DNA of 44,828 nt from Bacteroidales bacterium (GTDB lineage Bacteria > Bacteroidota > Bacteroidia > Bacteroidales > UBA12170): the NCBI GenBank assembly GCA_027858955.1, contig JAQIBR010000106.1, positions 1-44,828 on the forward strand, read 5' to 3'. Within the stretch, counting starts at the first letter, position 1; each line of letters starts with the position of its first letter. The translations under genes and the position numbers were made by a program. Positions 5,057 to 38,864 of the stretch are shown here, one piece after another. The notes under the pieces were generated by a model. That model saw nothing but the letters and a program-made list of their open reading frames with translations. It searched no databases and was not told the origin of the DNA.

Positions 5057-5425
5057 ATGAATTTGGATGATATTCATATTTTTGGTTTGCGTTTTATGTA
5101 TCGCGAACTTACCAACAATGGCTTTGAAGTTTTGAGTGTCGAGCCTGATTTAGAAACTTATCCTCAGATTGTTGCACGTAAAAGTAATCAGCTATATTTC
5201 ATCGTAGTTCAGACTGCCGCCTATCCTGATATTGGAGATTTGCCTACTAATCATCAAATCAAATTAATCCAGGAACATGCACAAAAGCATAACGCAATTA
5301 CCAAATTTACAAGCATTGGTTTAGCAAATGCTAACGCCAAAAACGAAATGGAAAAATCGATTTTAAAAAAAGGTGATGAATTTCTTGTTAATTATAGTGG
5401 AATAAAGGAGCTAATCAGGCTTTAA
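5057..5425 (+). CDS. Small conserved protein of unknown function
   Basis: A 122-residue soluble protein with no signal peptide or membrane segment. It begins MNLDDIHIFGLRFMYRELTNN, has a central beta-rich stretch (PQIVARKSNQLYFIVVQTAAYP), then an EHAQKHNA helix and a second core (KFTSIGLANANA), and ends with DEFLVNYSGIKELIRL. The alternation of a hydrophobic ARK...YFIVVQT strand with helices recalls small restriction-endonuclease-like folds. From memory it resembles a short Bacteroidota family often mislabelled as an Na(+)-NADH-quinone reductase F-like protein, but no flavin or Fe-S motif is present here. No function is assigned. Its stop codon overlaps the left end of an inverted-repeat element. 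Confidence 0.75.
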   Translation: MNLDDIHIFGLRFMYRELTNNGFEVLSVEPDLETYPQIVARKSNQLYFIVVQTAAYPDIGDLPTNHQIKLIQEHAQKHNAITKFTSIGLANANAKNEMEKSILKKGDEFLVNYSGIKELIRL

Positions 5426-5884: not shown

Positions 5885-8110
5885 ATGAAAATTGCAGTAA
5901 TAGGAAACTACCCCCCTCGAAAATGTGGAATAGCCACATTTACGGAAAATTTTGTTGATTCCTTATTGCAAGTCAAAGATGCAAAAACATCCTTATATAA
6001 TCAGATTGATGTATTTGCAATGAACGACCAAGATGAGATGTATGAATATCCCTCTATTGTAAAACAAAGTATCCGTCAAAATAATAAAGATGATTATTAC
6101 AAAGCAGTAGATATTATTAATAATAGTAATTATGATTGTTGTTATATCCAACATGAGTTTGGAATTTACGGTGGACATAGTGGATTGTTTGTAAATATAT
6201 TCTTTACACAAATAAAAATTCCTTTATTCGTAACATTACATTCTGTGTTAAAGGTGTTGAACTTCCATCAACAAGGTATTCTGGAAAATATGATTTTATT
6301 TTCTACTCAGTTGATAGTAATGTGCAAGACAGCTTTAAATATCTTAATATCCTATCATAATATCCGCAAAGAGAAGATTTCTGTAATTCATCACGGAGCA
6401 CCTGTTTTTAAAACATTTGACAGAATTAATGCAAAAAAAGCAAAGGGTTGGTCTAATTATACTATACTGATGACCTTTGGATTGATTGGCCGATCAAAAG
6501 GGTTAGAAACTGCCATTAGATCGCTGCCGGAAGTTTGTAAAATTTATCCCAATATACGATATGTGATTCTTGGTAGAACACATCCACATATTATTAAGCA
6601 TGAAGGTGAAGATTATCGTGAATGTTTAACGCAGTTGGCTGAAGAATTAGGAGTTATCGAAAATGTTATTTTTTTGGATAAGTATGTAAATGAGCCTGAA
6701 CTTACAAGCTATTTACAAGCCTGTGATATTTATGTTACACCTTATCTAAACGAAGCTCAAATTACAAGTGGAACACTTATTTATGCAGTTTCCTCGGGAG
6801 CTGCTGTAATATCAACACCCTATTGGCATGCGGTTGAATTATTTAAAAAAGGCCGAGGCATCCTTATCGACTTTGAATCGCATAAACAACTTGAGAAAGC
6901 AATCCTTAATTTATTATCTCATCCACAACAACTGCTTTCCGTGCAGCAGGCAGCTTTTGAATACGGGAAAAATGTTTCTTGGCCAATTATAGGAAAAGAA
7001 ACACATAAACTTGTTCTAAATTCTATTTCAAAAGTCACTAAACAGAAGATAAAAACAGAAGATGTTTTTTTAAATACACAACCAGAATTTTCCTTAGATC
7101 ATTTCAATTCTATAACAGATTCAACAGGTATATTTCAACATGCAATCTACAATTTACCTGATTATAATCATGGCTATTGTACAGATGATAATGCAAGAGC
7201 ATTAATTATGGCTATAAAATTGAATAGAAATATTAAGTCAAGAGAATCAGAAAAATTAATTACTAAGTTTCTGAGTTTCTTGAATTATATGCAAGTTGAA
7301 GATGGATCATTTGTTAATATGCTTAGCTATTCCAAAAATCATCTTTTAAATAATTATTCTCAAGATTCATTTGGAAGAGCTATTTGGGCTTTAGGATACA
7401 CAATAAAATATGCGCCACTGTTAAACCAAAAAGCATTTGCCTATGAAATGTTCAGAAAAGCTGTTCACTATTTTAATAATTTAATTGATTTGAAAAGTAT
7501 TGCCAATGTAATACTTGGCATTGTATTTTATCTGAAAGAAAATCCAGATGATAAATCAGTAGAATTTCAGCTTAAAGATTTTCTGCAAAAACTTTATATC
7601 TCTTACAAAACGGTTTCTGATAAAAATTGGCGATGGTATGAAAATAAATTATCATACGACAATGCTATTTTACCTTTAGCAATGTTTTATGGAGCATCAT
7701 ATTTTAAAAAACAGGAATATTTTGATGTGGCAATGGAAAGCCTTACTTTTTTGGAAAAGGTAAGTTATAAAGATAATCATCTATCCTTAATCGGGAATGA
7801 AAAATGGCTGGAGAAAGGGCACAAAAAATCATCATTCTCTCAGCAACCCATTGATGCAATGGCTTTTGTATTGCTATATCAATGTCTTTATAAATTAACA
7901 AATGACAAAAAGTATAAGAATAAATCAAAGTCAGCCTTTTCTTGGTTCTTAGGGAATAATGATCTTGGCGCATCAATTTACGACCAACAAACAAAAGGCT
8001 GTGCCGATGGTTTGTTTGAAGACAATCTAAATTTAAACCAAGGTGGAGAAAGCTTGCTAGCGTGGTTGATTGCTCATTTAACTTTTCTATCAGTTGAAGA
8101 AAAATGCTAA
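5885..8110 (+). CDS. GT4 glycosyltransferase with C-terminal helical (alpha/alpha) domain
   Basis: A 741-residue cytoplasmic protein. Residues 1 to about 385 are a GT-B fold of family GT4: the Gly-rich start PPRKCGIATFTENF, QHEFGIYGGHSG, VTLHSV, IHHGAPV and, near residue 290, PYLNEAQITSGTLIYAVSSG followed by AVISTPYWHAVELF. The usual second Glu of EX7E is absent, as in other members of this subgroup known to me. Residues about 400-741 form a separate domain beginning LDHFNSITDSTGIFQHA and GYCTDDNARALIMA, rich in helices and resembling alpha/alpha-toroid glycosidase folds. This two-domain type often sits beside GH130 genes, as here (127 bp upstream of one), which suggests transfer or turnover of mannose-containing glycans. 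Donor and acceptor are unknown. Confidence 0.85.
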   Translation: MKIAVIGNYPPRKCGIATFTENFVDSLLQVKDAKTSLYNQIDVFAMNDQDEMYEYPSIVKQSIRQNNKDDYYKAVDIINNSNYDCCYIQHEFGIYGGHSGLFVNIFFTQIKIPLFVTLHSVLKVLNFHQQGILENMILFSTQLIVMCKTALNILISYHNIRKEKISVIHHGAPVFKTFDRINAKKAKGWSNYTILMTFGLIGRSKGLETAIRSLPEVCKIYPNIRYVILGRTHPHIIKHEGEDYRECLTQLAEELGVIENVIFLDKYVNEPELTSYLQACDIYVTPYLNEAQITSGTLIYAVSSGAAVISTPYWHAVELFKKGRGILIDFESHKQLEKAILNLLSHPQQLLSVQQAAFEYGKNVSWPIIGKETHKLVLNSISKVTKQKIKTEDVFLNTQPEFSLDHFNSITDSTGIFQHAIYNLPDYNHGYCTDDNARALIMAIKLNRNIKSRESEKLITKFLSFLNYMQVEDGSFVNMLSYSKNHLLNNYSQDSFGRAIWALGYTIKYAPLLNQKAFAYEMFRKAVHYFNNLIDLKSIANVILGIVFYLKENPDDKSVEFQLKDFLQKLYISYKTVSDKNWRWYENKLSYDNAILPLAMFYGASYFKKQEYFDVAMESLTFLEKVSYKDNHLSLIGNEKWLEKGHKKSSFSQQPIDAMAFVLLYQCLYKLTNDKKYKNKSKSAFSWFLGNNDLGASIYDQQTKGCADGLFEDNLNLNQGGESLLAWLIAHLTFLSVEEKC

Positions 8111-8237
8111 TATTAAGAGTTGGGATTCCATTAAATACTTCTTTAATTCTATTATTTTCCTTACATTCGAATCTTAATTTTTTAAAACGGTTGATTAAAA
8201 TATATCTATATAAGTGTTAATCTTTAAATGATAAAAA

Positions 8238-10103
8238 ATGGCGATTAATGTTAACAGATTAGAGACAATTTTTCTCCCTGACCCACAACGTGTCATTGTA
8301 CGATTCTTTTTCCCAGGGCCCGAAAGTCGTGTTAAAAAAATCATTAAAAAAGTTATTGAAATAGAGGATGAAAAAGCACAACTCACATTTAATCAAGCAC
8401 TCCGTAATTTTTCTGACCGACACAGAAATATTTCGAAAATATTTGCTAAGCACTTTAATCATGTTAGGCATTTTGTAGTTGAATTAGGATATAATCCTGA
8501 TGAAATACCTGAATTTAAACTATTGCTTATCGGTGCGTTTTTTACTCATGAATACTCTATAGAGTCGGCAGCATTTTTTAACCCAAGCATGGTTGAAGAT
8601 CCTGATCAGAGTAATCTTATAGAAGGCCAAAAAAGGGTTATTGTAAGTTTTAGAGCTACCGGTGAGGGTCATATTTCTTCTATTGTATTCAGGGGAGGAA
8701 TTGTTAATGCTAACGGCAGTATCGATTTTTATGAATCTAATCGATTGGTTGATGAAGCTGAAGTTATTCGCAAAAGCCAGTACACAAAAATTGATTTTTT
8801 GGCTAAACTTAGCGAAATGGAAGTAACCAAAAAAATAGTTATCGATTTAGTAATAAATAGATTACCAGACCATTTTGATTATAATCAATTGACTGAAGCT
8901 GTAAATCTATCAAGAGAAGAAGTAAGACAAACTCCGTCGAATAAACATGTTTTGGATGCAGTTCATTGGCTGGCAAGTTCGAATCATGAGATTACTTTTT
9001 CGCTGGATACTGCCATAAGTGATCGCGTTATTTTTCCTATTTCAGCATCAGAAAGCAATGGAATTGAAGATGCTCGTTTTGTAAAGTTTACAAACGACGA
9101 TGGAAGTATTGTATATTATGCAACCTACACCGCATATAATGGTTATACAATTTTGCCAAAACTGATTGAAACTACTGATTTCTATCATTTTAAAGTTATT
9201 CCTCTATATGGCGAAAAAGCTCAAAACAAAGGAATGGCCCTGTTTCCCAGAAAAATCAATGGAAAATATGCGATGGTATCAAGAATTGATGGTATAAACA
9301 ACTATATAGGATTCTCGAATGATATAAATGTATGGCAAGAAGCCCAACTATTGCAAGAACCAATTTATCCTTGGGAATGTGTTCAGATTGGGAATAGCGG
9401 ATCTCCAATTGAAACTGAACGTGGATGGCTGCTGATAACTCACGGAGTTGGTACTATGAGACAATATTCATTAGGTGCGATATTACTTGATTTGGAAGAT
9501 CCTACTAAAATTATTGGAAGATTGGAAGAGCCTCTTTTAGTACCAAATAAAAAAGAGCGAGAAGGCTATGTTCCAAATGTTGTATATTCTTGCGGCTCAA
9601 TTATTCATAATGGCAAACTTATTGTCCCCTACGCTATGTCAGATACTGCATCGTCTTGTATGTGGGTAGATTTGGATGAGCTTTTCTCTAAAATGATACC
9701 AGAGGACGAAACTAAATATTCAAATGAAAAAGCAGGTAATATTCTAGTGGTTGAAGACGATCTAATCTTTAGAAAGATTATTAAAGAAATGCTATCAACA
9801 AAGAATTACAATGTTGTTTTAGCATCTGATGGAGTTGAAGCATTAATGAAAATTTCTAATTCCAAATTTGATGTAATCTTAAGCGACATAAATATGCCTA
9901 ATTTCGATGGCTTTCAGTTAATGAATTATATGAATGAAAAAGAAATTCATATTCCAGTGATTTTTATGACTTCATTAACGGATGAAAAATTTGAATTAAA
10001 AGGACTGGAACTCGGTGTTATAGAATATTTAAAAAAGCCAATAAATTTAGAGTTGCTTAACTTAAAATTAGAACGCATACTTAAAAGCAAAAAAAAGACT
10101 TAG
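8238..10103 (+). CDS. GH130-type beta-mannoside phosphorylase/hydrolase fused to a receiver (REC) domain
   Basis: One uninterrupted 621-residue frame carries two unrelated modules. After a helical N-terminal region (to about 130) comes a five-bladed propeller of the GH130 type: GIEDARF (Asp278 in the place of the GxEDPR Asp), then GNSGSPIETERGWLLITHGV and YVPNVVYSCGSI, ending near 485. GH130 enzymes act on beta-mannosides by phosphorolysis or hydrolysis. Residues about 500-618 are a complete response-regulator receiver: acidic pocket Glu506/Asp507/Asp508, phospho-acceptor Asp550 in LSDINMP, Thr578/Ser579, and Lys600 in KKP. No DNA-binding domain follows and no histidine kinase is nearby. The enzyme may therefore be controlled, or localised, by phosphorylation; that is inference. 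It lies downstream of the GT4 gene and its stop overlaps the stop of convergent manA. Confidence 0.88.
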   Translation: MAINVNRLETIFLPDPQRVIVRFFFPGPESRVKKIIKKVIEIEDEKAQLTFNQALRNFSDRHRNISKIFAKHFNHVRHFVVELGYNPDEIPEFKLLLIGAFFTHEYSIESAAFFNPSMVEDPDQSNLIEGQKRVIVSFRATGEGHISSIVFRGGIVNANGSIDFYESNRLVDEAEVIRKSQYTKIDFLAKLSEMEVTKKIVIDLVINRLPDHFDYNQLTEAVNLSREEVRQTPSNKHVLDAVHWLASSNHEITFSLDTAISDRVIFPISASESNGIEDARFVKFTNDDGSIVYYATYTAYNGYTILPKLIETTDFYHFKVIPLYGEKAQNKGMALFPRKINGKYAMVSRIDGINNYIGFSNDINVWQEAQLLQEPIYPWECVQIGNSGSPIETERGWLLITHGVGTMRQYSLGAILLDLEDPTKIIGRLEEPLLVPNKKEREGYVPNVVYSCGSIIHNGKLIVPYAMSDTASSCMWVDLDELFSKMIPEDETKYSNEKAGNILVVEDDLIFRKIIKEMLSTKNYNVVLASDGVEALMKISNSKFDVILSDINMPNFDGFQLMNYMNEKEIHIPVIFMTSLTDEKFELKGLELGVIEYLKKPINLELLNLKLERILKSKKKT

Positions 10104-11098
10104 TTTTTGTCCGTCGGTAAAATGTACACTTCAATCACTTTAGCTGAATTTAATGGTTTTAGATGGATATGAGCAGTAGAAGCAGGAATTAGAACAACCT
10201 CACCTGCGCTAAGTAAAACCTTATCGTGTACTTTATCATCCAATTCAAAAACACCTTCGGCACAGAGATAAATTACAAAGGAATCTAAATCAGAAAAATC
10301 CTTTTCAATTGAGACATCCAAATCGATAAGATTAGTAACAAAATGCTCGCTTTTAACAAGAGAAACAGTTTCGTTTTTCTTTTTTGTATAGTGACTTTTA
10401 TATGAATCAGCTATATCGAAGTCGATGGCAGCCATAGCATCTTTAAGGTGCAATTCGCGACTATTTCCCTGATTATCAACCCGATCCCAATCGTAAATTC
10501 GATAAGTTGTATCACTTGTTTGCTGAATTTCAGCAAGTAAAATACCGGGACCTAAAGCATGAACTCTTCCGGCAGGCATATAATACACATCACCTGCTTT
10601 CACATCTTCGAAATTCATAATTTCGGGAAGTTGTTTATCTTCTATTTTTTGCAGATAAGTCTGCTGATTTACTTTTTGATTGAAACCGGCAATTAACTTG
10701 GCATCTTTATCGGCTTGAAGGATATACCACATTTCTGTTTTTCCGCCTTCCAATCCACGTTGACGTGCTAAATTATCATCAGGATGAACCTGAATAGAAA
10801 GCCAATCATTTGCATCAAGAATTTTTATAAGCAAAGGAAAAACATTACCATAAGTTTCGTGGTTTTTCTCGCCCACAAGTTCATCCATATAAACTTCAAC
10901 CAATTCGTTTAATTCGTTTCCCGCCAAAAAGCCGTTAGCAACAATACTTTCCGATCCAGGATAACCAGACAATGCCCAAAGCTCTCCGCAATTGTGTAAA
11001 TCGTCAAAATCTTGATTTAAAATAGTTTTTATTTTTTGTCCGCCCCAAATTTTGTCACGGAAAATGGGTTGAAATTTTAGGGGATAGAGAATGTTCAT
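10100..11098 (-). CDS. manA: Mannose-6-phosphate isomerase, class I
   Basis: This cytoplasmic zinc enzyme interconverts mannose 6-phosphate and fructose 6-phosphate. At 332 residues it is the short Bacteroidota/Firmicutes form. Cupin-fold metal ligands are visible: Gln103 and His105 in IQVHPDD, Glu122 in GKTEMWYI, and His180 in AGRVHALG. Active-site Arg200 lies in TTYRIYDWDR. The start FQPIFRDKIWGG is typical. It is convergent with the GH130-REC gene and the stop codons overlap by 3-4 bp. Its position suggests it feeds mannose released by the GH130 enzyme into glycolysis, or supplies mannose precursors for the GT4 enzyme. Confidence 0.95.
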   Translation of the reverse strand: MNILYPLKFQPIFRDKIWGGQKIKTILNQDFDDLHNCGELWALSGYPGSESIVANGFLAGNELNELVEVYMDELVGEKNHETYGNVFPLLIKILDANDWLSIQVHPDDNLARQRGLEGGKTEMWYILQADKDAKLIAGFNQKVNQQTYLQKIEDKQLPEIMNFEDVKAGDVYYMPAGRVHALGPGILLAEIQQTSDTTYRIYDWDRVDNQGNSRELHLKDAMAAIDFDIADSYKSHYTKKKNETVSLVKSEHFVTNLIDLDVSIEKDFSDLDSFVIYLCAEGVFELDDKVHDKVLLSAGEVVLIPASTAHIHLKPLNSAKVIEVYILPTDKN

Positions 11099-11719: not shown

Positions 11720-14530
11720 ATGCGCTTGAAATATTACAATAGATTCTATTATTTTATTTTATTTTTAATACTTCTGTCTAAATCAGTATCAGCACAGTAT
11801 TCGCATTATTTCCAAAATTATTCATTATCAGATTATAAAGCTGCAAATCAAAATTGGGATATTACCAAATCTGGAGACGGGAAATTATACGTTGCTAACA
11901 ATGATGGTCTGCTGGAATATGATGGACTAAACTGGAATTTTTGGGAATTACCTAATAGAACAACAATAAGATCTATACTAGAACATAAAAATAAAATATA
12001 TGTAGGCTCCTACGAAGAGTTTGGCTTTTTTGAAAGAAATAATAAAGGCGATTTAGAATATACTTCACTTTTGAATATTGATACAAAAATAGATAATCGA
12101 AATGATGAAGCGTTTTGGGAAATTATACTTTATAAAGATGCTCTTGTATTTCGCTCATTTTCTAATATTTATATCTATAAGGATGAAGAAATTATTAGTT
12201 TGAAATTGGAGTCGGTTATTATGTCGTGCGATGTAGTTAATGACAAACTTTATGTTTCTTCTTTGGATAATGGAATTTTTATATTAGAAAATCAGACATT
12301 AGTCCCATATTTTTATTCTGACGAATTATACAATACAAAAACTGTTTCGATTGTATCAAAAAACAATAATCAGCTCCTAATTAATACCGAATTAAAAGGC
12401 TGTTTTATTTTGGAAAATTATACTATTTCTCCTTTTAATACTGAAATAAATCCACTTCTAAAAAAATATCAACTCAATAGATATTCTCAATTACAAAATG
12501 GGAACATGATTTTCGGTACTATAAAAAACGGAGTATATATAACCGATAATTCAGGTAATGTTTTATATAATATCAATAAGGATATTGGTCTTATAAACAA
12601 TACGGTATTGGGTCAGCATGTTACAAATGACAATATACTTTGGTTAGGATTGGATAATGGAATAGCCTTTGTAGATTTAAACTCACCTAATTACTATTAT
12701 AATGATATCTCGGGAAAACTTGGTGCCGTTTACGATGTTATCAACTATAATGACACTATCTATATTGGAAGTAATACAGGTTTATATTTTGTTGATGAAA
12801 ACGAAAAGATCGAATTTATTGAAGGTTCGCAGGGACATGTTTGGAGTTTGCAGGAAATAGAAGGAGAACTATTCTGTTGTCATAATAACGGGACTTATCT
12901 GGTTAAAAAAAATAAAATTGAATTTATACCAAACTCAACCGGAGCTTGGATAATCAAAAAAGTTCCAAATCAAAGAAATATTTATTTACAGGGAACATAT
13001 TCAGGTTTATCCAGTTTTATTAAAACGAATGGAGAATGGAAAGTTAAACATTTAGGGGAAACAACTTTACCTGTTAAATTTCTTGTTTTTGAAGATGAAT
13101 ATATTGCTTGGATTGGTCATGCAAATAAAGGCCTGTTTAGAGTTAAGTTTAATAATGACTATTCTCAAATTATTGATTTGCAAGACTATATCAATAAAGG
13201 AATTTGGACGGACTATTATGTAAAAATATACAATCTTAAGAATACGATTGCATTTCATACAAAACATGGATGGCAAAAATATGAACCATTAGTTGATAGC
13301 ATAGTTCCCTACGATTTGTTAAATGAAAATATCGGAAAAAACAGCTATATAATTTCAGAAGAAGACTTACTTAAAACTGTATTTAAAACAAACAATTCTT
13401 TAAACTTTGGGACAAATATTAATGACTTTAACAGCATCTCCATTCCAAGAAAATATTATAATAAAAGACTTAACAGCGGTAATGAAAATGTTTCTAGGAT
13501 TAATGATACTACTGCTGCATTAAATTTATATGATGGATTTATGCTGATAAACACAGCAAACTTTTCATCGAAAGAAATATTAGAAGAACCCAGGATTGCG
13601 AAAATAGTTGTGAATAACCAGCTAATTGAATTAAATACTGATAATATTACCCTTCCATTTCGAAACAATAACATTAAAATAACCGTAACTGCTCCTTTTG
13701 CTCAAGATTTAAATTTTGAATATAAACTTTCTAATATTAATATATATTCAACATGGACAAAATTTGAAAATGGGTTAATAGAATTCTCAAATCTATCAGA
13801 TGGAGAATATCTTTTATCTATGAGAACAGTTGATAACCACAATAATATCTCAGATTCTTTACAATTAGAATTTTCAGTAACTCCTCCCTGGTTTAAAGAT
13901 ACTATTGGATTTCTGCTTTACAGTTTCATATTTCTAATAAGTGGATCAATAATCTATTTATTTTATGTAAAAAAAATTAATAAGGAACAAAAATTACTTC
14001 AAATAAAGTATGAAGAATCGCAAAAAAAAATGCTTGAAAAGCAAACTTATGAAAATGAGAAAGCTATTATAAAACTAAGAAACGACTCTTTGAGAAATGA
14101 TATAAAGCTAAAAAGTAAGCAATTAGCGAATACAGCAATGGCATTAGTTAAAAAGAACGAAACTCTTCTTCAATTGAAAAACGACTTACTTTTAGATAAG
14201 GATGATTTTAAAAATCAGTATTCTTTTAAGAAACTAATCCGCCAAATTGATTATTCAATTGAACATGAAGACCAATGGGATATTTTTGAAAGCAATTTCA
14301 ACCAAGTCCACGAAGAGTTCTTTAATCAATTAAAAATAAAATTCCCCAATCTAACACGCAAAGATCTTAAAATGTGTGCTTTTCTGAAAATGGATTTATC
14401 TACTAAAGAGATTGCGCCATTGCTTAATATTTCAATACGCGGTATTGAAACTCATAGATATCGATTGAAAAGAAAACTGGATTTAGAGAAAAACGAAGAT
14501 TTGTGCCGATTCCTTCAGAGTTTTCATTAA
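11720..14530 (+). CDS. Membrane-bound PUL regulator: propeller sensor, Y_Y_Y domain, LuxR-type HTH
   Basis: A 936-residue one-protein signal transducer. A signal peptide (about 1-26, ending SVSAQ) is followed by a large periplasmic sensor to about residue 640 with repeated blades of the two-component-regulator propeller type (for example DNGLLEYDGLNWNFW and DNILWLGLDNGIAFVDLNSP). Next come a Y_Y_Y-type Ig domain (about 645-722), one membrane helix (about 730-752) and a coiled coil (about 760-830). The C-terminal HTH (about 876-936) contains LSTKEIAPLLNISIRGIETHR. There is no histidine kinase or receiver, unlike hybrid two-component systems of related PULs. It probably senses an oligosaccharide in the periplasm and activates the divergent operons at about 29 kb. 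It is convergent with the GH3 gene, with only 7 bp between them. Confidence 0.88.
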   Translation: MRLKYYNRFYYFILFLILLSKSVSAQYSHYFQNYSLSDYKAANQNWDITKSGDGKLYVANNDGLLEYDGLNWNFWELPNRTTIRSILEHKNKIYVGSYEEFGFFERNNKGDLEYTSLLNIDTKIDNRNDEAFWEIILYKDALVFRSFSNIYIYKDEEIISLKLESVIMSCDVVNDKLYVSSLDNGIFILENQTLVPYFYSDELYNTKTVSIVSKNNNQLLINTELKGCFILENYTISPFNTEINPLLKKYQLNRYSQLQNGNMIFGTIKNGVYITDNSGNVLYNINKDIGLINNTVLGQHVTNDNILWLGLDNGIAFVDLNSPNYYYNDISGKLGAVYDVINYNDTIYIGSNTGLYFVDENEKIEFIEGSQGHVWSLQEIEGELFCCHNNGTYLVKKNKIEFIPNSTGAWIIKKVPNQRNIYLQGTYSGLSSFIKTNGEWKVKHLGETTLPVKFLVFEDEYIAWIGHANKGLFRVKFNNDYSQIIDLQDYINKGIWTDYYVKIYNLKNTIAFHTKHGWQKYEPLVDSIVPYDLLNENIGKNSYIISEEDLLKTVFKTNNSLNFGTNINDFNSISIPRKYYNKRLNSGNENVSRINDTTAALNLYDGFMLINTANFSSKEILEEPRIAKIVVNNQLIELNTDNITLPFRNNNIKITVTAPFAQDLNFEYKLSNINIYSTWTKFENGLIEFSNLSDGEYLLSMRTVDNHNNISDSLQLEFSVTPPWFKDTIGFLLYSFIFLISGSIIYLFYVKKINKEQKLLQIKYEESQKKMLEKQTYENEKAIIKLRNDSLRNDIKLKSKQLANTAMALVKKNETLLQLKNDLLLDKDDFKNQYSFKKLIRQIDYSIEHEDQWDIFESNFNQVHEEFFNQLKIKFPNLTRKDLKMCAFLKMDLSTKEIAPLLNISIRGIETHRYRLKRKLDLEKNEDLCRFLQSFH

Positions 14531-14537: not shown

Positions 14538-16847
14538 TTATTTGGTTAATTCAAATTCTGATTTTAAATTTTCAACAGAACTTGCTCCAACAAAGACTTC
14601 AAAATCGCCTGGCTCTGCAACAAAATCTATATCATAATTGTAGAACTTTAAATCTTCAACTGATAAAGTGAATGTTACTGTTTCGGTTTGTCCTTTTTTT
14701 AAAGCTATTTTCTTAAATCCTTTTAGTTCTTTCACAGGTCTGGTAACTGAGCCAACAAGGTCGCGAATGTATAATTGAACAATTTCTTTTCCATCAAAAT
14801 TTCCGGTATTTGTTACTTCGACAGTAATATCAATTGATCCGTTTTTTGCCATTTTATCAGCACTTAATTTTAGATGGGAATAATGGAATGAGGTATAACT
14901 CAATCCAAAACCGAAAGGGTAAAGTGGCTCATTTACTTCGTCAATATAGTTTGAAGTAAATTTCTCAAACTTACCTTCACTATTTCCAAGAGGCCGACCC
15001 GTATTTTTATGATTATAAAAAATTGGAATTTGACCAACATTTCGAGGGAAAGTAGCTGTTAATTTTCCGGATGGGTTAACATCTCCGAATAATACGTCTG
15101 CAATTGGTAATCCACCTTCGCTTCCCGGAAACCAAACATTAAGTATGGCAGGAACTGTTTTATTTTCTTCAACTAATACTAAAGGCCTGCCCGTAAACAA
15201 AGTCAAGACTACAGGTTTTCCTGTTTTTAATAAAGCGTTTAGAAGGTCTTTTTGAGCTTGTGGAATCTCAAGATTAGTTCTGCTACTACTCTCGCCACTC
15301 ATTTCGGCAGATTCGCCTAAAGCAGCAATAATCACATCAGCTTTTGAAGCTACTTTAAGAGCTTCGTCAAGTAATTGTTTGTCAGTTCTATTATCTCTTT
15401 GTAATTCTTTCCCAAACATCGTTGCTTTTCGCTCAAAATCCTCATCATAATCCAGATTACTTCCTTTGGCATAAAGAATCGTTGCCTTATCTCCAGCAAC
15501 AGCTTCAAGACCTTCCAAAAATGAATAAGCCTTTTTATGATCAGTTGCAACGCTCCAAGTACCGGGCATGTTTTCTCTGGTATTTGCTAAAGGACCTATA
15601 AGTGCAATTTTACCAGATTTTTTTAAAGGTAATAATTGGTTTTCATTTTTTAATAAAACCATTGTTTCAGCAGCAACTTTTCTGGCAAAAGCTCTATTTT
15701 CTTTTGTGAATATTTCAGTTTTAGCCCTATTTTCGTCACAATATTTATATGGATCATCAAATAAACCCAACTTATATTTGGCGGTTAAAATTCTTTTAAC
15801 TGCCTTATCAATATCATCTATGCTTACTGTACCATCTTCTAGGGACTTTGTCAGTGTAGTTAAAAAACCTTCACCAATCATATCCATGTCAGTTCCAGCT
15901 TTGAGAGCTATAGCAGCACTTTCTTTTAAATCTCCCATTCCATGTTCGATCATTTCATTTATACCAGTATAATCTGTAACCACAAAACCATCAAACCCCC
16001 ATTGATTCCTTAAGACTTCAGTAAGTAACCATTTATTACCTGTTGCAGGAATACCATCTACTTCGTTGAAAGAAGACATTACAGATCCTACTCCGGCGTC
16101 AATAGCTGCTTTATAAGGCGGAAAATAATCGTTATACATTCTTTGTCGACTCATATCAACTGTCCCATAATCTCTTCCTGCATCTGGAGCGCCGTATAAT
16201 GCAAAATGTTTAACACAAGACATAATTGTATTGCTGTTTGATAAATCATCTCCCTGATAACCTCGTACCATTGCTTTTGCGATTTCACCACCTAAAAAGG
16301 CATCTTCCCCTGAAGCTTCGGCAACCCTGCCCCACCTGGGGTCTCTTGAAATATCAACCATTGGAGAAAATGTCCAATTAATACCATCGGCACTTGCTTC
16401 TTGAGCAGCCATACGTGCTGTTTTTTCGATCAAATCCATGTCCCACGAAGCTGATAAACCTAAAGGAATTGGAAATGTTGTTTCATATCCGTGAATTATA
16501 TCCATTCCAAAAAGGAGTGGTATTTTTAACCTGCTTTCTTCAACAGCAATTTTCTGAATTTCCTTTATTTTTTTGACGGATTTTATGCTAAGTACTCCAC
16601 CTACTTTTCCTTCCTTAATTTTTTTCGCGATATCGGAGCTTTTTGCTTGTCCTGTAATTATATCTCCCGATCCAGGTAAATTTAATTGACCAAGTTTTTC
16701 TTCAAAAGTCATCAACTTCAATAGAGAATCTACTTGTACATCATACTGTGTTGAATGGCTGGTTTTTAAAGTATCAACATCATTATTGCAAGCTAATGTT
16801 AGGACAGCAAGTAAAACAGTAATTATAAAAAATGGTTTTTGTAACAT
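14538..16847 (-). CDS. GH3 beta-glucosidase, lipoprotein (BglX-type)
   Basis: A 769-residue exo-acting beta-glucosidase. A lipoprotein signal peptide ends at the lipobox LTLAC (Cys20). The N-terminal TIM barrel has PMVDISRDPRWGR, CVKHFALYGAPDAGRDY and the nucleophile loop GFVVTDYTGINEM with Asp292. The alpha/beta sandwich follows with GESAEMSGESSSR near residue 510. The C-terminal fibronectin-like domain (about 660-765) includes VTRPVKELKGF. It is the last gene of the minus-strand SusC-to-GH3 operon. Beside endo-acting GH144 enzymes it probably trims sophoro-oligosaccharides to glucose. Linkage specificity cannot be read from sequence alone. A close paralogue lies at 36587. Confidence 0.93.
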   Translation of the reverse strand: MLQKPFFIITVLLAVLTLACNNDVDTLKTSHSTQYDVQVDSLLKLMTFEEKLGQLNLPGSGDIITGQAKSSDIAKKIKEGKVGGVLSIKSVKKIKEIQKIAVEESRLKIPLLFGMDIIHGYETTFPIPLGLSASWDMDLIEKTARMAAQEASADGINWTFSPMVDISRDPRWGRVAEASGEDAFLGGEIAKAMVRGYQGDDLSNSNTIMSCVKHFALYGAPDAGRDYGTVDMSRQRMYNDYFPPYKAAIDAGVGSVMSSFNEVDGIPATGNKWLLTEVLRNQWGFDGFVVTDYTGINEMIEHGMGDLKESAAIALKAGTDMDMIGEGFLTTLTKSLEDGTVSIDDIDKAVKRILTAKYKLGLFDDPYKYCDENRAKTEIFTKENRAFARKVAAETMVLLKNENQLLPLKKSGKIALIGPLANTRENMPGTWSVATDHKKAYSFLEGLEAVAGDKATILYAKGSNLDYDEDFERKATMFGKELQRDNRTDKQLLDEALKVASKADVIIAALGESAEMSGESSSRTNLEIPQAQKDLLNALLKTGKPVVLTLFTGRPLVLVEENKTVPAILNVWFPGSEGGLPIADVLFGDVNPSGKLTATFPRNVGQIPIFYNHKNTGRPLGNSEGKFEKFTSNYIDEVNEPLYPFGFGLSYTSFHYSHLKLSADKMAKNGSIDITVEVTNTGNFDGKEIVQLYIRDLVGSVTRPVKELKGFKKIALKKGQTETVTFTLSVEDLKFYNYDIDFVAEPGDFEVFVGASSVENLKSEFELTK

Positions 16848-16923
16848 TAGTATTCTGATTATTTTGTTATTGATATGTTTGAATTTTATTAGGAATGCCG
16901 TTAATACACGAATTAATTAATTT

Positions 16924-18276
16924 TTAATAGGTAAATCCAAGTTTATCCAAGCCTTTTTGAATATCTTCATTTTGCATAAACAGATTCCATAATAGGCCTG
17001 ATCTGTAATTTTCGATCATACTAATAATTGGACCTTGATCTATAGCCAAATAAGTTCCTGAAACCCAATAGCCATATTCTGGACTAAAAGCATCATAAAA
17101 TCCTGCCGGACCTAGAAGTTTGTCTTTATTTCGATAAAAATAATGAAGAGCTCTCATCGATTCCTCAGGAGTATATGGAATGGAGCTTACTGCAGCAGTC
17201 GGAGAAATAACTCCTAGGTCATTTGAAGGTCTATGTGCAGAATAACTTAAACCGCCATCTGCAGTGCGTGTATAGCTAGCTGTTAATCCCCAACAATCAA
17301 TGCCATAGTCTGTATAATTTTTGGGGTTGGCAACGCAATAATTATAATTAATTTGAGAATGACTAACATTTACATTCCAATAATTCACGTATTCATCTGA
17401 AAGATTAGTTGGGTTTAATCCAAGAAAAGAATAATGCGCCCAAAAAAGTGGCCCACCATAAACTTGATTGCCATTATGCCTTACCAATAAAGGATAACCA
17501 TAAGTAATTTGGTTCGATTTTATACCTCCATTTGATGCCCAACCATCGGTATAAGCTTTTTTGTTTATTCCAAAATCGGGTGAAGATGCTGCCATAATGT
17601 ATGTAATTAGAACTTCATTATAGCCTTTCAATTGAAAATTTATGCTGAAGTCGTAATCAGGACTCCAATGCCAATATAATACGTCTTGATTTTGCGTATA
17701 CCAATCCCATTCTATTTTTTTCCACAATTGGTCAGCTTTATCCGCAACTTCTTTCTCAGCATCGGTACCGTTTTTAAAATATTCTTTTATGCAAACCAAG
17801 CCTTGAGCTAAATATGCCGTTTCAACCAAATCACCACCATTATCCATTGTACTAAAAGGCTTAACATTTCCGTTAGTTCCATCTATCCAATGAGGCCAGG
17901 CACCATGAAAACGATCAGCATTCTCCAAAAAATTCAAAATTTTAACAAATCGTTCAACACCCTGATCTTTTGTAATAAAATTTCGTTCTATACCTACCAA
18001 AATGGCCATTAAGCCAAAACCAGTTCCTCCAGTTGCTACAGTATGTGCATCATAATTTGGATCATCAGGATGATAACGTTCGCGAGCACAACCTGAATTA
18101 CTTTCCGCAAAATCCCAGAAATATTTAAAGGTTTCTCTTTGAGTAAGGTCTAATAATTCTTCATCTGCAATAGTTGTAAGATCAGGAAACTCAACAGGTT
18201 CATAAACATATTTATCCTCTTTGCACGAAGAAATAAAAATGACAAGGCTAAAAATTAAGAGTTTGACTTTATTCAT
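16924..18276 (-). CDS. GH144-type endo-beta-1,2-glucanase-like lipoprotein (copy 1, promoter-distal)
   Basis: The 450-residue protein belongs to the 'glycoamylase-like' (PF10091) superfamily, whose characterised GH144 members cleave beta-1,2-glucan internally. The lipobox is FISSC (Cys18), followed by Lys-Glu-Asp, an acidic tail compatible with surface export in Bacteroidota. Conserved blocks in order are TGGTGFGLMAILVGIERNF, RFHGAWPHW, the acidic DNGGDLVETAYL, YWHWSPDY, GYNEVLITY, ISPTAAVSSIPYTPEES and AIDQGPIISMIENYRSG (Asp413). All acidic positions shared with copy 3 are kept. Its start overlaps the stop of copy 2 by 8 nt (ATGAATAA), implying translational coupling. The exact linkage cleaved is inferred from family membership. 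Confidence 0.85.
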   Translation of the reverse strand: MNKVKLLIFSLVIFISSCKEDKYVYEPVEFPDLTTIADEELLDLTQRETFKYFWDFAESNSGCARERYHPDDPNYDAHTVATGGTGFGLMAILVGIERNFITKDQGVERFVKILNFLENADRFHGAWPHWIDGTNGNVKPFSTMDNGGDLVETAYLAQGLVCIKEYFKNGTDAEKEVADKADQLWKKIEWDWYTQNQDVLYWHWSPDYDFSINFQLKGYNEVLITYIMAASSPDFGINKKAYTDGWASNGGIKSNQITYGYPLLVRHNGNQVYGGPLFWAHYSFLGLNPTNLSDEYVNYWNVNVSHSQINYNYCVANPKNYTDYGIDCWGLTASYTRTADGGLSYSAHRPSNDLGVISPTAAVSSIPYTPEESMRALHYFYRNKDKLLGPAGFYDAFSPEYGYWVSGTYLAIDQGPIISMIENYRSGLLWNLFMQNEDIQKGLDKLGFTY

Positions 18277-20467
18277 TTTCTTTTAAATAATGATTTGCAA
18301 AATTAAGTTTCTTTAATCCTGTTTGCACATTCTCATTTTGCATAAACAGATTCCATAATAAACCGGTTCTATAATTTTCGATCATAACAGTAATTGGGGC
18401 TTGATTTAATCCCATAAATAGTGGCGAACACCAATTATCAGTTAATGAAAATGCATCCCGAAATCCGTAATATCCATATAGAAAATCTCCATAATTCAGA
18501 TAATAATTTTTAAGTGCCTTCATTGAAGCTTCTGGTGTATATGGGAAACTTGCTAAAGCTCCAGTTGGTGTCATTTTACCAACATCTTTCTCGTATTTAG
18601 GTTCATTAGCCGAATAATCATAAGGGCCATCGCTAGCTGTAAGACCCCAACAATCTTCGCCATAGCCAATATAGTTTTTAGGGTTTTCAATGCAGTAGCG
18701 TTGATTTATTTGTGCAATTTTTTTATTATTTTCAAAGTAGTTGACATATTTATCTGTCATTTCATGAGGATTTAATCCTAAAAATGAATAATGAGTAAAA
18801 AATAAAGGTCCTCCATTAGATACACCAACTGGAAGTTCTATGCCAAAATAATTGTTTCCATTTATATATTTTGAACCTTGAGTTGTATTTCCCCAATTTG
18901 AGCGATAGTCTATAGCCTCATCTAACTGACTTGCCCAACCGGAATAATACATCGAAGCTGGCACACTATGAGTTGGTGATGCGATTGCTAAAAAATAAGT
19001 AATCAAGGTTTCGTTCCAGCCAATAAGTTTATGATTTATAATCCATTCTTGATCAGGCGACCAATGCCAATATAAAAAATCGGAATTAGGAAATCTTTTA
19101 TGCCAATCCCACTCTACATTATTCCAAATTTCTGTAATCGCATTTCTAATTTCAGCTTCTCTAATGTTTTTACCATCAAAATATTGTCGAGCTGTTAACA
19201 AACCTTGCATTAAGAAGGATGTCTCAACCAAATCGCCACCGTTGTCTTTTAAACCAAAAAAAGGAACTATTTTCCCTGTTTCTCCATCTAAGAAATGCGG
19301 ATAAACACCATGAAACCTATCTGCTTCTTTTAAAAATTGAATTATCTTTAAAAATCTATCTATAGCTTCATCTTTTGAAATATAGTCTCTTTCAACTCCA
19401 GTAATTATTGCCATAATACCAAATCCCGAAGCTCCGAGAGCTATCATAGAATTTCTTCCAGGTATATTTTCTAAGGCTAGGCCAGAATTTACTTCTGCAC
19501 CTTCCCAATAATATCTGAAATTAGATTCCTGGATCATATCCAAAAAATCTTCATCGGTCATAATCTTTGTTTTGGCAGACATTATGTTGGAAAATGAAGT
19601 TTCCTTATAATTATCATCTAAAAAAGTGATTCTATATGAAAACTCGGTTGATTTATTATCTCCGATGAAATCTGTAAAACCAGGAATCCATGGTGATTGA
19701 ATACCAACAGCTTGGTAATTATTGTCATCCTTTATAGACCGATAAATTTTAATATAACGTATATTCTTATCAACCAAAGGTTTCCACTTAATATCTACAT
19801 GACTTTGATAGCCTTTGGTGGATGTAAGTTCAGGATTTTGTTCAACACTTCTATTATTTGAGATATTAACTAGTTCAATCTGATCAATAAATAGTTGATT
19901 TGTACTAATAGTTACGCCACTTTGTGAATATTTAACTCCAGTAATATTTGATGAAGAAATTTCATTATAAAAATCTGTTAATGGAATTAATACTCTTTGC
20001 CAATTTCTATTATTTGATGTTATATATTTTTTTAAATGTATCTCCTTTGAAATTTCTTCTTCGGTAATCAAAAGAGCAATCTTTGGAAGTGAATTTAAAT
20101 CTTTAACTATTCCAATATGAATCCAAAATGACAAATGAGTTGCTGGATTAAAAAAATCAATCCCTCTTATATCATCATATAATACAATAGCAGACCAATT
20201 TCCTTCATCTGAAGAAGAGTATTCTAATTCTAAAGAATTTCCAACAGTAAAAGCATATTTATCAGAAACCGGAAGTTTAGACCGGGTTTGTTTTATCCAG
20301 CTTTTCCCAGAATACTTGACTGAAGTAAAGTAATATGAACCATACATGATGCTATTCTCGAAAAAAACTTTATCATAAGCAAATTCTTGAGAATTAGCAC
20401 TTCCGATATTAATAAGAAAGGCAAGAAAATAAATAATTAAATGTTGATATTTAGTTTTTTTACTCAT
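18269..20467 (-). CDS. GH144-type protein with N-terminal CBM-like and FN3 domains; Asp-to-Asn change (copy 2)
   Basis: The longest of the three paralogues (732 residues). A type I signal peptide (about 1-27, ending SANSQ, no lipobox Cys) suggests a periplasmic or secreted protein, unlike its lipoprotein neighbours. Residues about 30-200 form a jelly-roll, carbohydrate-binding-like domain (LSFWIHIG, WQRVLIPLTDF, LFIDQIELV). An FN3-like domain follows (about 215-300). The GH144 domain spans about 305-725 with DNGGDLVETSF and GWNETLITY intact. However, the Asp of IDQGP in both other copies is Asn688 here (GLNQAPITVMIENYRTG; the minus-strand codon AAT at 18406-18404). If that Asp is needed for catalysis, this copy is weakened or binding-only. 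The 8-nt overlaps at both ends fix the starts. Confidence 0.82.
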   Translation of the reverse strand: MSKKTKYQHLIIYFLAFLINIGSANSQEFAYDKVFFENSIMYGSYYFTSVKYSGKSWIKQTRSKLPVSDKYAFTVGNSLELEYSSSDEGNWSAIVLYDDIRGIDFFNPATHLSFWIHIGIVKDLNSLPKIALLITEEEISKEIHLKKYITSNNRNWQRVLIPLTDFYNEISSSNITGVKYSQSGVTISTNQLFIDQIELVNISNNRSVEQNPELTSTKGYQSHVDIKWKPLVDKNIRYIKIYRSIKDDNNYQAVGIQSPWIPGFTDFIGDNKSTEFSYRITFLDDNYKETSFSNIMSAKTKIMTDEDFLDMIQESNFRYYWEGAEVNSGLALENIPGRNSMIALGASGFGIMAIITGVERDYISKDEAIDRFLKIIQFLKEADRFHGVYPHFLDGETGKIVPFFGLKDNGGDLVETSFLMQGLLTARQYFDGKNIREAEIRNAITEIWNNVEWDWHKRFPNSDFLYWHWSPDQEWIINHKLIGWNETLITYFLAIASPTHSVPASMYYSGWASQLDEAIDYRSNWGNTTQGSKYINGNNYFGIELPVGVSNGGPLFFTHYSFLGLNPHEMTDKYVNYFENNKKIAQINQRYCIENPKNYIGYGEDCWGLTASDGPYDYSANEPKYEKDVGKMTPTGALASFPYTPEASMKALKNYYLNYGDFLYGYYGFRDAFSLTDNWCSPLFMGLNQAPITVMIENYRTGLLWNLFMQNENVQTGLKKLNFANHYLKENE

Positions 20468-21800
20468 AGTAAAATCCCAATTTCTTTAATCCCCTTTTCA
20501 AGTCTTGATTTTGCATAAATAAATTCCACAACAATCCACTTCTATAGTTTTCTATCATCACCGGAATTGGTCCTTGGTCTATTGCCAAATATCTTGGCAA
20601 ATACCAATTATTTTCATGACTGAAAGCATCATAAGGTCCGTATTTTCCAACCAAACTATCTGCATTATTGTATAAATATTTTAGCATCTGCATACTTTCT
20701 TTAGGAGTATATGGAAAAGACGACAATGCTGCTGTAGGTGATATTACTCCAAGATCTCGCGTAGGATTATGACCCGAGTATCCTTTCATAGAGTAGCTAG
20801 AAGTAAGACCCCACATATTTTTACCATATCCTTCAAAATTTGCTGGATTATCTACACAATATGCATAATGAATTTTAGCATGATTTTGATTTAGTTTCCA
20901 GTAATCAGCAAATTGATCTTCAAGACCCTTGGGATTTAATCCTAAATAAGAATAGTGTGCCCAAAAAAGTGGGCCAACTGGAGCATCATTGTTTTCGTAA
21001 TGATTTAAAACAGTTTCAAAGCCATAAAAAACAGTATCATTGGCAATATCCCCGTTTTTTGCCCATCCTTTTTCATATACATCTTTGCTAATTGAATGAG
21101 TGGGAGAAGAAGCTGCTAAAACATACATTATTAATGCTTCGTTATATCCTCCAACCGGAAAATTCATTTCCCAGCCATAATCAGGCGACCAATGCCAATA
21201 TAAAACATCACTATTATCTTTAGTATACCAATCCCATTCTACTTCTTCCCAAAGCTGTTGTATTTTATTGGCTAAAGCAACTTCTCTTTCGTTACCATTT
21301 TGGAAATACTGCTTCACGGTTAATAAACCTTGAACTAAAAATGCCGTTTCAACTAAATCTCCACCATTATCTTTTGCACTAAATGCATATGCTTTTCCCG
21401 TTTCCCCTGCAAGCCAATGAGGCCAAGCTCCGTGAAAACGGTCTGCATTTTCCAGATAATTTATAATTTTTTCAAAACGCACTAAAGCTTGTTCTCTGGT
21501 TATGAATTTTCTTTCAACACCAACTAAAATTGCCATTAAACCAAATCCACTTCCACCTGTAGTGACAATATTTTTATCGTGATGAGGATAGATATTATCC
21601 ATATGCAAACGCTCACGAGCAAGTCCGGATGTAGGCTCTGCACCATCCCAAAAATAATTAAAGGTTTGATATTGAACTAAATCCAATAAGGCTTCATCAG
21701 TTAATATATCTGATTGCTTTTTATTTTGATTTGAATTACATCCAATACTAAATATTAATATAAATGCAATGGCAATTATAAGGCTGCTTTTTAATCTCAT
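20460..21800 (-). CDS. GH144-type endo-beta-1,2-glucanase-like lipoprotein (copy 3, promoter-proximal)
   Basis: The 446-residue protein is the first of the three tandem copies to be transcribed. The lipobox is FSIGC (Cys21). The catalytic domain has TGGSGFGLMAILVGVERKF, RFHGAWPHW, DNGGDLVETAFL (Asp144, Asp148, Glu151), YWHWSPDYGWEM, GYNEALIMY and AIDQGPIPVMIENYRSG (Asp408). From memory, the spacing of these acids agrees with residues studied in the Chitinophaga GH144 enzyme. It follows a 200-bp gap with three inverted repeats after the binding-protein gene. It ends in an 8-nt overlap (ATGAGTAA) with copy 2. The proposed role is endo-cleavage of beta-1,2-glucan at the outer membrane. Confidence 0.87.
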   Translation of the reverse strand: MRLKSSLIIAIAFILIFSIGCNSNQNKKQSDILTDEALLDLVQYQTFNYFWDGAEPTSGLARERLHMDNIYPHHDKNIVTTGGSGFGLMAILVGVERKFITREQALVRFEKIINYLENADRFHGAWPHWLAGETGKAYAFSAKDNGGDLVETAFLVQGLLTVKQYFQNGNEREVALANKIQQLWEEVEWDWYTKDNSDVLYWHWSPDYGWEMNFPVGGYNEALIMYVLAASSPTHSISKDVYEKGWAKNGDIANDTVFYGFETVLNHYENNDAPVGPLFWAHYSYLGLNPKGLEDQFADYWKLNQNHAKIHYAYCVDNPANFEGYGKNMWGLTSSYSMKGYSGHNPTRDLGVISPTAALSSFPYTPKESMQMLKYLYNNADSLVGKYGPYDAFSHENNWYLPRYLAIDQGPIPVMIENYRSGLLWNLFMQNQDLKRGLKKLGFYYE

Positions 21801-21817
21801 ATACTATGTTATTAAAA

Positions 21818-21992
21818 CATTTGTAGTTACGACTATAAAGAAGTAACTACAAATGAATGGGCAAAAAAACTAATTAAATTAATTGATCAAACGCAGATTA
21901 ATTTATTAAATGTTAAAACTAAATTAATCTGTCAAAATTTTTGAAAAGGATTTTTACTTGCAAATGGGATCGCAAATAAACCCTTTTCAAAA
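21818..21992 (-). other. Three consecutive perfect inverted repeats in an intra-operon gap
   Basis: The 200-bp gap between the LamG-protein gene and GH144 copy 3 holds three stems. The first is 13 bp (CATTTGTAGTTAC 21818-21830 with 21843-21855; 12-nt loop). The second is 12 bp (CAGATTAATTTA 21894-21905 with 21920-21931; 14-nt loop). The third is 11 bp (TTTTGAAAAGG 21939-21949 with 21982-21992; 32-nt loop containing two GCAAAT copies). Every other gap in this operon is under 80 bp or an overlap. In the minus-strand transcript the stems could protect the upstream susCD-binding-protein message, or reduce read-through into the enzyme genes. No U-run typical of an intrinsic terminator follows the stems. 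Confidence 0.65.
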
Positions 21993-22000
21993 TTCTTCAA

Positions 22001-24394: not shown

Positions 24395-24422
24395 TTTTCT
24401 TATTTTTAATTGTTATATCTTA

Positions 24423-25958
24423 TTATTTAGCATTATTTAAAGCAGGCAATAAATCGAGCTGATTTTGAGGATAAGGAAGAAATGCTTTATCATCTGAAAA
24501 TGATCTTCCATCATAACTCAATTCAGTAGTCTTTCCTAGTCTTACCATATCAAAGAAACGAGTACCCCATTCCATTGCCAGTTCAGCGAATTTCTCATCC
24601 ATAACTTGCTGATTGGTAACACCGGACAATTCTGTTAAACCTGCTCTTGCTCTTAATAAATTCACAGCCTGATCAGCAGAACCTGCAGTACCAGACGCGC
24701 CTTGTGTAAGTGCTTCGGCGTACATCAACAATATTTCAGCATAACGAATAAGAGTAAAGTTTTTATTCGTTCCGTAATTTGTACGTCCAGGAGTAAGTTG
24801 ATTAGAAGGCAAATAATGTTTTCCACTTGCAAACATTGCACGTGCATAATCTTCAATTAGATCGCCGTCTCTAGTTGTATTGGAAATCCAAGCTGGTAAT
24901 GTAGCATAATTCGGATCTGAAGTAATCTCACTTATACCTCGATCAGTAAAAAGTACAGAAGTTTCGAGACGTACTGTTTCACCTCTGTCCAGCATAAATT
25001 TTATGAATTTTATACTTGGTTCGTAAAACCCCCAACCACTACCAGCACCAACAACAGCAGGTGTCCAATTTTCAGGTCCAAAGAATGCAAAAAGATGATC
25101 TTTAACATCACCAGCACCTTGTCCAAAATCAGAATATTGGAGTTCTAGGATATTTTCATTGTTTAATTTGCCAGGAATTTTGAAAAGTTCATAGAAATCA
25201 GATTCAAGAACAAAAGCTCCGGAACTAATAATCTGACCAGCAGCATCAGCAACAGCTTGATAATTTTTCAATTCAAGATTTGCTAATGCTTTAATAGCAA
25301 GGGCAGTATATTTTGTAGCTCCACCGGGAATATCTGTTCTTTGATTTGGATGCAATCCAACTAAATGAGGAATTGCCTCATCCATTTGATCTGATATATG
25401 CTGCATTATTGCATCTTTAGTAGATACTTCAGCTACAAGTAGCTCCGAAGGATCGGAAGAAGTAGTAATAAAAACATTACCCCAAGTACGAGACAATTGG
25501 AAAAGTAAGAAAGCACGCAAAGTTTTTGCCTCAGCAATATATTGATTTGCTAATGTGGCACTTGCCCCGTTCTCTTTAAACAATTCAATCTGTTCCATTG
25601 CAGAATGTGCAACAAAAATATCTGAATACATATTTTGCCACACAGAATTATACATCCAATAATCTTTATTGTAATTGTATTTATCAGTTTCAGCATAATC
25701 TTGCTGATCTCCTAAACCGCCAGAGTTAACATCATCGCCTCTTACAGAAATAAGAGGAAAATCTTCCCATCCGCGAGCTTGAAATTCGGCATAAGTACCT
25801 ATAAGAGGTAAGATCATATTACTGGAAACAGTATAATCTGTTTCACCTGTAAAAGATCTATTCTGAGGTGGTTCAATTAATAGGTCGTTGCATGATGACG
25901 CAAACAGCAACATAATTAACAACCACGTAAATTTTTTAAAATTATTTATAAGTTTCAT
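24423..25958 (-). CDS. SusD/RagB-family glycan-binding outer-membrane lipoprotein
   Basis: The 511-residue SusD homologue has lipobox FASSC (Cys23) followed by NDLLIEPPQN, the usual SusD N-terminus. The helical TPR-type scaffold is evident in AEAKTLRAFLLFQLSRTWGNV and KYTALAIKALANLELKNYQAVADAA. The C-terminal region has NFTLIRYAEILLMYAEAL, QAVNLLRARAGL and EWGTRFFDMVRLGKT, all hallmarks of the RagB/SusD family. It forms the lid over the SusC transporter and binds the glycan. It lies 19 bp downstream of susC and 28 bp upstream of the LamG-protein gene, consistent with one transcript. Confidence 0.97.
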   Translation of the reverse strand: MKLINNFKKFTWLLIMLLFASSCNDLLIEPPQNRSFTGETDYTVSSNMILPLIGTYAEFQARGWEDFPLISVRGDDVNSGGLGDQQDYAETDKYNYNKDYWMYNSVWQNMYSDIFVAHSAMEQIELFKENGASATLANQYIAEAKTLRAFLLFQLSRTWGNVFITTSSDPSELLVAEVSTKDAIMQHISDQMDEAIPHLVGLHPNQRTDIPGGATKYTALAIKALANLELKNYQAVADAAGQIISSGAFVLESDFYELFKIPGKLNNENILELQYSDFGQGAGDVKDHLFAFFGPENWTPAVVGAGSGWGFYEPSIKFIKFMLDRGETVRLETSVLFTDRGISEITSDPNYATLPAWISNTTRDGDLIEDYARAMFASGKHYLPSNQLTPGRTNYGTNKNFTLIRYAEILLMYAEALTQGASGTAGSADQAVNLLRARAGLTELSGVTNQQVMDEKFAELAMEWGTRFFDMVRLGKTTELSYDGRSFSDDKAFLPYPQNQLDLLPALNNAK

Positions 25959-25977
25959 GATGATATATCTTTAATAA

Positions 25978-29498: not shown

Positions 29499-29591
29499 TA
29501 CCTTGATTAAAACACAGTAAAAAAAACAGTTTTGATTGAATTTAAATTAAGATTGCTATTTCTATCTTCAAAAAGTAATAATAAAAAGAAA

Positions 29592-33844: not shown

Positions 33845-33853
33845 GAAATTATT

Positions 33854-34699: not shown

Positions 34700-34709
34700 A
34701 AGTATATTA

Positions 34710-36524: not shown

Positions 36525-36533
36525 ATTATAAAG

Positions 36534-36566
36534 AGACCTGACAGTTTTTAAAAACCTGTCAGGTCT
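36534..36566. repeat. Perfect 11-bp inverted repeat within the plus operon
   Basis: AGACCTGACAG (36534-36544) pairs with CTGTCAGGTCT (36556-36566) around an 11-nt loop TTTTTAAAAAC. The same ACCTGACAGG palindrome is a common dispersed repeat in Bacteroidota. It ends 20 bp before the GH3 start and could attenuate transcription or stabilise the upstream message. It lacks a trailing T-run, so it is not called a terminator. Confidence 0.7.
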
Positions 36567-36586
36567 AAAGAATAAAAATCTTAAAC

Positions 36587-38851: not shown

Positions 38852-38864
38852 CAAATAAAACAAA

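Follow-up and report, generated by a model that had tools for sequence, protein, structure and literature searches.

A GH130-type enzyme fused to a receiver domain with a conserved phosphorylation site in a Bacteroidales bacterium and its relatives

The DNA analyzed here (the window, 44,828 nucleotides) is a whole contig of a 3.46 Mb draft genome of a Bacteroidales bacterium, assembled in 273 contigs. It carries a gene, here called GH130-REC, that joins an enzyme domain of glycoside hydrolase family 130 to a response-regulator receiver (REC) domain, and that lies between a glycosyltransferase gene and an isomerase gene:

5885-8110, + strand: glycosyltransferase of family GT4 (residues ~1-385) with an (alpha/alpha)6 barrel (~400-741), 127 bp upstream of GH130-REC; Pfam Glycos_transf_1
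8238-10103, + strand: GH130-REC gene, ATG start, 621 aa, stop at 10101-10103, no internal stop
8238-9701, + strand: GH130 enzyme domain, residues 1-488, five-bladed propeller by Pfam and structure model
9702-9734, + strand: linker, residues 489-499, with pLDDT below 50 at 491-496
9735-10100, + strand: REC domain, residues 500-621, by Pfam, conserved residues and fold match
10100-11098, - strand: class I mannose-6-phosphate isomerase (TIGR00218), convergent with GH130-REC and overlapping its end by 4 bp

The two flanking genes give the fusion a mannose-related setting; a first-pass annotation of this DNA had placed it in mannoside metabolism. The isomerase ORF matched the NCBIfam profile TIGR00218 (manA) with 142.5 bits (cut-off 116.2) and is kept as a neighbor in three congeneric genomes (G001, G004 and G010). 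For the GT4-(alpha/alpha)6 protein (model pLDDT 86.8), structural comparison with VIA-align placed residues 1-385 close to sucrose-phosphate synthase (6kih, Z 36.2), and the fold search also matched this part to MshA and to the GDP-Man-using PimA/PimB'. The nearest solved folds of the (alpha/alpha)6 part were YPO2471 (7tem, Z 36.8) and the GH76 alpha-mannanase BT2949 (Z 28.9). Among the relatives' loci the GT4-(alpha/alpha)6 gene adjoins the fused gene in most cases, the exceptions being G002, G003, G009a, G108, G145, G239, G316 and others. It also adjoins unfused GH130 genes, and the enzyme pair is therefore older than the REC domain or does not depend on it. The window gave no sign of an operon linking GH130-REC to GDP-mannose or Man-1-P genes, and a promoter and terminator scan gave promoter-like counts at the shuffled level.

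Several other genes of the window were noted. A 122-aa ORF at 5057-5425 (+), which has no Pfam or NCBIfam match, is conserved at the corresponding position in G004 and G010, and a 936-aa protein at 11720-14530 (+), with a C-terminal LuxR-type HTH and an apparent periplasmic sensor part, is possibly a one-piece regulator. A polysaccharide utilization locus at 14538-28989 (-) encodes GH3, three consecutive PF10091 'glucoamylase' proteins, a laminin-G-like protein, SusD and a SusC-like protein; since PF10091 includes the GH144 beta-1,2-glucanases, the target of this locus may be beta-1,2-glucan. A second carbohydrate gene run at 29532-42381 (+) contains GH2 with malectin, a sulfatase, an endonuclease/exonuclease/phosphatase-like protein, GH43, GH3, GH97 and a sugar transporter.

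The first-pass annotation had read GH130-REC as two domains in a single frame. This was confirmed by the uninterrupted ORF and by Pfam matches that were both above cut-off, PF04041 (Glyco_hydro_130) at residues 261-483 (109.8 bits, E-value 1.7e-31, cut-off 26) and PF00072 (Response_reg) at residues 502-609 (92.9 bits, 1.9e-26, cut-off 30.2). Translation and alignment also returned every motif and REC residue at its expected position, with GIEDAR at residues 275-280, YVPNVVYSCG at 444-453, the acid pair at E506/D507 (D508 is also present), the phospho-acceptor at D550, and T578 and K600. The AlphaFold2 model had a mean pLDDT of 90.4, with values below 50 in the linker only, and showed extra helices (29-101 and 184-246) on the GH130 propeller.

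A fusion seen in one genome could arise from an assembly error or a frameshift, and a missed stop or frameshift near 9720-9740 had been named as the point to check. This is excluded because the same junction is open in independently assembled genomes. Full-length fusions, whose absence from close relatives would have spoken for an error, were found in six congeneric genomes, with identities to the window protein of 84% (G001), 74% (G004), 73% (G010), 66% (G002) and 53-54% (G003 and G009). Apart from the genome being a draft in 273 contigs, nothing points to an artefact, and 26 independent proteins span the junction with shared ancestry and with selection on both sides of it; we consider an artefact of this genome practically impossible and have discarded it as an explanation. 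Thus, the GH130-REC fusion is real and not an assembly error.

The taxonomic spread, which the first-pass annotation had proposed to search, was followed within the relatives' genomes and amounted there to 26 distinct GH130-REC proteins, which come from 25 genomes in 9 families and no fewer than two orders. The fusion is present in six further genomes of the window's genus and in eight more families; eight of the families with the fusion belong to the window's own order or genus and one (f122) lies in the same class outside that order. In 4 of the 11 genomes of the window's genus there was no match to the long-form GH130 domain, and some of these four are incomplete. Two diverged GH130-REC copies are found in G009 (L080:132-2066 and L079:7302-9149). 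Tandem copies of the unfused long form were observed in G128 (L066:5670-7211 and 7383-9038). In trees built only from the GH130 domain, the fused proteins formed one group, with support of 98/93 for 19 fused proteins among 46 sequences and an SH-aLRT of 95 for 26 fused proteins among 103, the other 77 being single-domain. A single origin therefore suffices, and independent origins are not needed as the tree requires one change only.

The REC domain is kept in a form that is expected to be functional. D507, D550, T/S578 and K600 are found in all 26 fused proteins, position 506 is E or D, and the modelled fold matched the response regulator 2qzj with a Z of 22.3 and an rmsd of 1.1 A (VIA-align). 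The fold together with the acid pair, the acceptor Asp, the Thr/Ser and the Lys are those of a two-component response regulator in 26 of 26 fused proteins, and the residue pattern predicts that REC can be phosphorylated in each of them. In six close pairs pN of REC was ~0.04-0.23 as compared to a pS of ~0.3-0.98, which is comparable with the GH130 domain. REC is thus under purifying selection like that on the enzyme, and the linker drifts, as its identity falls to 18% between the window genome (G000) and G001 with flanking domains that are 86-87% identical. Among the fused homologues the linker varies freely in sequence and is poorly conserved in length too, which is not suggestive of a finely tuned allosteric joint. 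Possibly, then, REC is a docking or oligomerization module or a phosphate sink that is kept for its contacts, and phosphorylation leaves GH130 catalysis unchanged; the position of the G794 gene, which comes last in a run of genes for several kinases and stand-alone REC proteins, would fit such a role. Pure docking would not, however, need the complete set of catalytic REC residues, including the switch residues T/S578 and K600, that is present in 26 of 26 proteins, and we find this explanation unlikely.

In the GH130 domain D278 is the candidate acid, with N115 and D469 at the -1 site. An alignment of Uhgb_MP and related phosphorylases with a sister protein located four further site residues: K331 falls in the Asn-Arg/Lys motif, R349 corresponds to Arg in 'SRP', Q383 to Lys in 'TKIG' and H402 to His in 'YHG'. 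The corresponding residues of Uhgb_MP we take to be R150, R168, K212 and H231, the last three of which are the three basic phosphate ligands. Residue counts over 46 GH130 homologues showed that D278, N115, D469 and R349 are invariant, that K331 is kept in 44 and H402 in 43, and that Q383 stands for the phosphate-site Lys/Arg in 45. With its Pfam match, its five-bladed propeller and a catalytic Asp and -1 site residues that are invariant in 46/46 sequences, the domain belongs to CAZy family GH130, and equivalents of D278, N115 and D469 are found in Teth514_1788 (PMC4264767).

The fold comparison (VIA-align) placed the domain nearest to the beta-1,2-mannan phosphorylases (Z 36.6-37.1), the best match being beta-1,2-mannobiose phosphorylase 7fir (Z 37.1, rmsd 1.8 A, 282 aligned residues, 33% identity), followed by the hydrolases 5a7v and 3qc2 (Z 32.5-32.6) and, as distant matches, the Leishmania GT108 enzymes (Z 21.2-22.2, 12-15% identity). 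Sequence searches ranked them in the same order. K331 falls on the Asn-Lys motif found in beta-1,2 GH130 enzymes, where the beta-1,4 enzymes have Asn-Arg, and is the putative equivalent of Lys199 in BT3780. The GH130 domain would act on a beta-mannoside, most likely a beta-1,2-linked one.

Of the three basic phosphate ligands of the phosphorylases R349 and H402 remain, and the third is replaced by Q383. As 45 of the 46 homologues have this Gln instead of Lys/Arg, phosphorolysis is uncertain, and the enzyme may still work like a phosphorylase despite this exchange. In the hydrolases BT3780 and BACOVA_03624 the base is a pair of Glu residues, E227/E268 (PMC4599007). This pair, characteristic of GH130_NC, is absent from GH130-REC, which has R349 and Q383 there according to a mapping deduced from residue spacing and alignments. 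The favored reaction is phosphorylase- or synthase-like because of the two remaining basic phosphate ligands and the missing Glu pair, with the protein assigned to neither of the two GH130 subgroups, and by fold, K331 and R349/H402 a phosphorylase or a Man-1-P-using synthase is more likely than a hydrolase. The site matches in full neither the phosphorylase nor the hydrolase that the first-pass annotation had proposed, and the domain may be a phosphorylase, a hydrolase or a synthase. Still, there is a considerable chance, if one short of even, that the domain is no phosphorylase and works as a hydrolase or as a GDP-mannose- or Man-1-P-dependent mannosyltransferase like Leishmania GT108, so that REC would control hydrolysis or synthesis. 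Such an activity would agree with Q383 at the Lys/Arg position of the phosphorylases, with the fold in common with the GT108 enzymes and with the constant pairing with a GT4 protein, whereas the residues mapped to the Glu-pair positions of BT3780 and BACOVA_03624 argue against hydrolysis, and the closeness of the phosphorylases in both fold and sequence argues against either alternative. The window's genome also encodes a second GH130 protein (L059:1492-2541), which matched the solved mannoside synthase Uhgb_MS with 551.8 bits over 346 residues, and owing to this very close match the genome has two GH130 types.

A profile scan of the window and Pfam searches of 22 window ORFs detected no HisKA/HATPase protein, in agreement with the first-pass annotation, and the genome as a whole encodes ~40 HisKA proteins. 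In G145 a 1039-aa PAS/GAF/HisKA/HATPase kinase (L084:8387-11506) ends 103 bp upstream of GH130-REC on the same strand. In G794 a 980-aa kinase, the last of a run of signalling genes (L130:2519-13864), immediately precedes GH130-REC on the same strand, and GH130-REC itself ends a same-strand run with four kinases and two REC-only genes. A kinase within 1 kb was seen at 2 of 26 fused and 3 of 77 single-domain loci, which is not a significant difference (one-sided Fisher p 0.37). Those near the three single-domain loci are all on the other strand, and counting same-strand kinases alone gave 2/26 vs. 0/77 (p ~0.06 by hand), both fused cases being from one genus. Kinase linkage was for this reason rejected as proof of function, and the upstream kinases in G145 and G794 are a suggestive, though not statistically significant, lead to the partner. 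The partner need not everywhere be the orphan kinase or small phosphodonor that the first-pass annotation had expected from the lack of a kinase nearby, because histidine kinases are encoded directly upstream in those two genomes.

The presence of multi-domain sensors around the G794 copy also fits a signal that runs the opposite way, with GH130 as a mannoside sensor (a trigger enzyme) providing the input and REC phosphorylation, or a dialogue with the kinase, as the output. The enzyme-first domain order and the modelled N-terminal helical additions, which are absent from the 300-aa GH130 enzymes, could be read likewise. Nevertheless, the active-site residues of GH130 are equally conserved in fused and unfused homologues (counts on 46), as if catalysis matters, and such a reversal seems to us quite improbable.

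Taken together, our results lead us to favor, with some reservation, that GH130-REC controls mannoside metabolism as an enzymatic response regulator, in which phosphorylated REC would alter the enzyme and which would act with the GT4-(alpha/alpha)6 partner. The protein is taken to be cytoplasmic since no signal peptide is evident by eye. From the conserved site, a histidine kinase whose gene lies outside the window would be expected to phosphorylate D550, and phosphorylation could then alter GH130 activity or the oligomeric state through the short flexible linker. GH130-REC and the adjacent GT4-(alpha/alpha)6 protein probably work on one mannosyl product, and the two-component signal would shift the balance between making and releasing it, so that flux moves between the mannosyl product and Man-1-P or mannose, with mannose-6-phosphate isomerase tying the product to central metabolism. 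A narrower version, in which the signal switches a glycoside phosphorylase that mobilizes (or, in the reverse direction, extends) an intracellular mannoside built by the GT4 protein, is put forward only tentatively, as a minority expectation; if true, it would be a post-translational, phosphorelay-controlled counterpart of reserve-glycan mobilization. Most response regulators act on DNA, c-di-GMP or chemotaxis, and a conserved clade with a central carbohydrate-active enzyme as output would connect sensing directly to metabolic flux. The 26 fused and 77 unfused homologues of one enzyme offer a clean natural comparison, and the clade would help to find out what is synthesized or degraded by long-form GH130 enzymes that are paired with a GT4-(alpha/alpha)6 protein.

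The first-pass annotation knew of no described GH130-REC protein, and no description of a response regulator with GH130 output was found in the literature searched, which left most subscription journals and all preprints outside its coverage. Regulation of this kind had been called unusual; enzymes under REC control are indeed uncommon, but they form a recognized class, which makes the arrangement less unusual than suggested. Among GH130 enzymes, the beta-1,2-mannoside phosphorylases Teth514_1788, Teth514_1789 and Lin0857 resemble GH130-REC in fold (Z 36.6-37.1), catalytic Asp, -1 site Asn/Asp, Asn-Lys motif and phosphate-site Arg and His. They differ from it in length (300-363 aa as compared to ~620 aa), in lacking the helices 29-101 and 184-246 and the C-terminal REC, and in having Lys/Arg where GH130-REC has Gln383. 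The Thermoanaerobacter cluster of the Teth514 phosphorylases also has a GT4 gene (PMC4264767). The beta-1,2-mannosidases BT3780 and BACOVA_03624 share the fold (Z 32.5-32.6) and the catalytic Asp, at ~21% identity, and differ by their Glu pair E227/E268 (PMC4599007) in place of R349/Q383. The Leishmania GT108 MPT enzymes (mannosyltransferases/phosphorylases), although distantly alike in fold (Z 21.2-22.2, 12-15% identity), belong to a separate CAZy family and have no REC in the matched chains. Response regulators with a metabolic enzyme as output have been described as a class with narrow phyletic ranges, including methanogen glycosyltransferase-REC fusions (PMC5847659). The BcsA-like glycosyltransferase-REC of Methanobacteriaceae, like GH130-REC, combines REC with a carbohydrate-active metabolic enzyme within a narrow phyletic range (PMC5847659), whereas GH130-REC belongs to another enzyme family and to a bacterial clade, has the enzyme first and has a conserved GT4-(alpha/alpha)6 neighbor.
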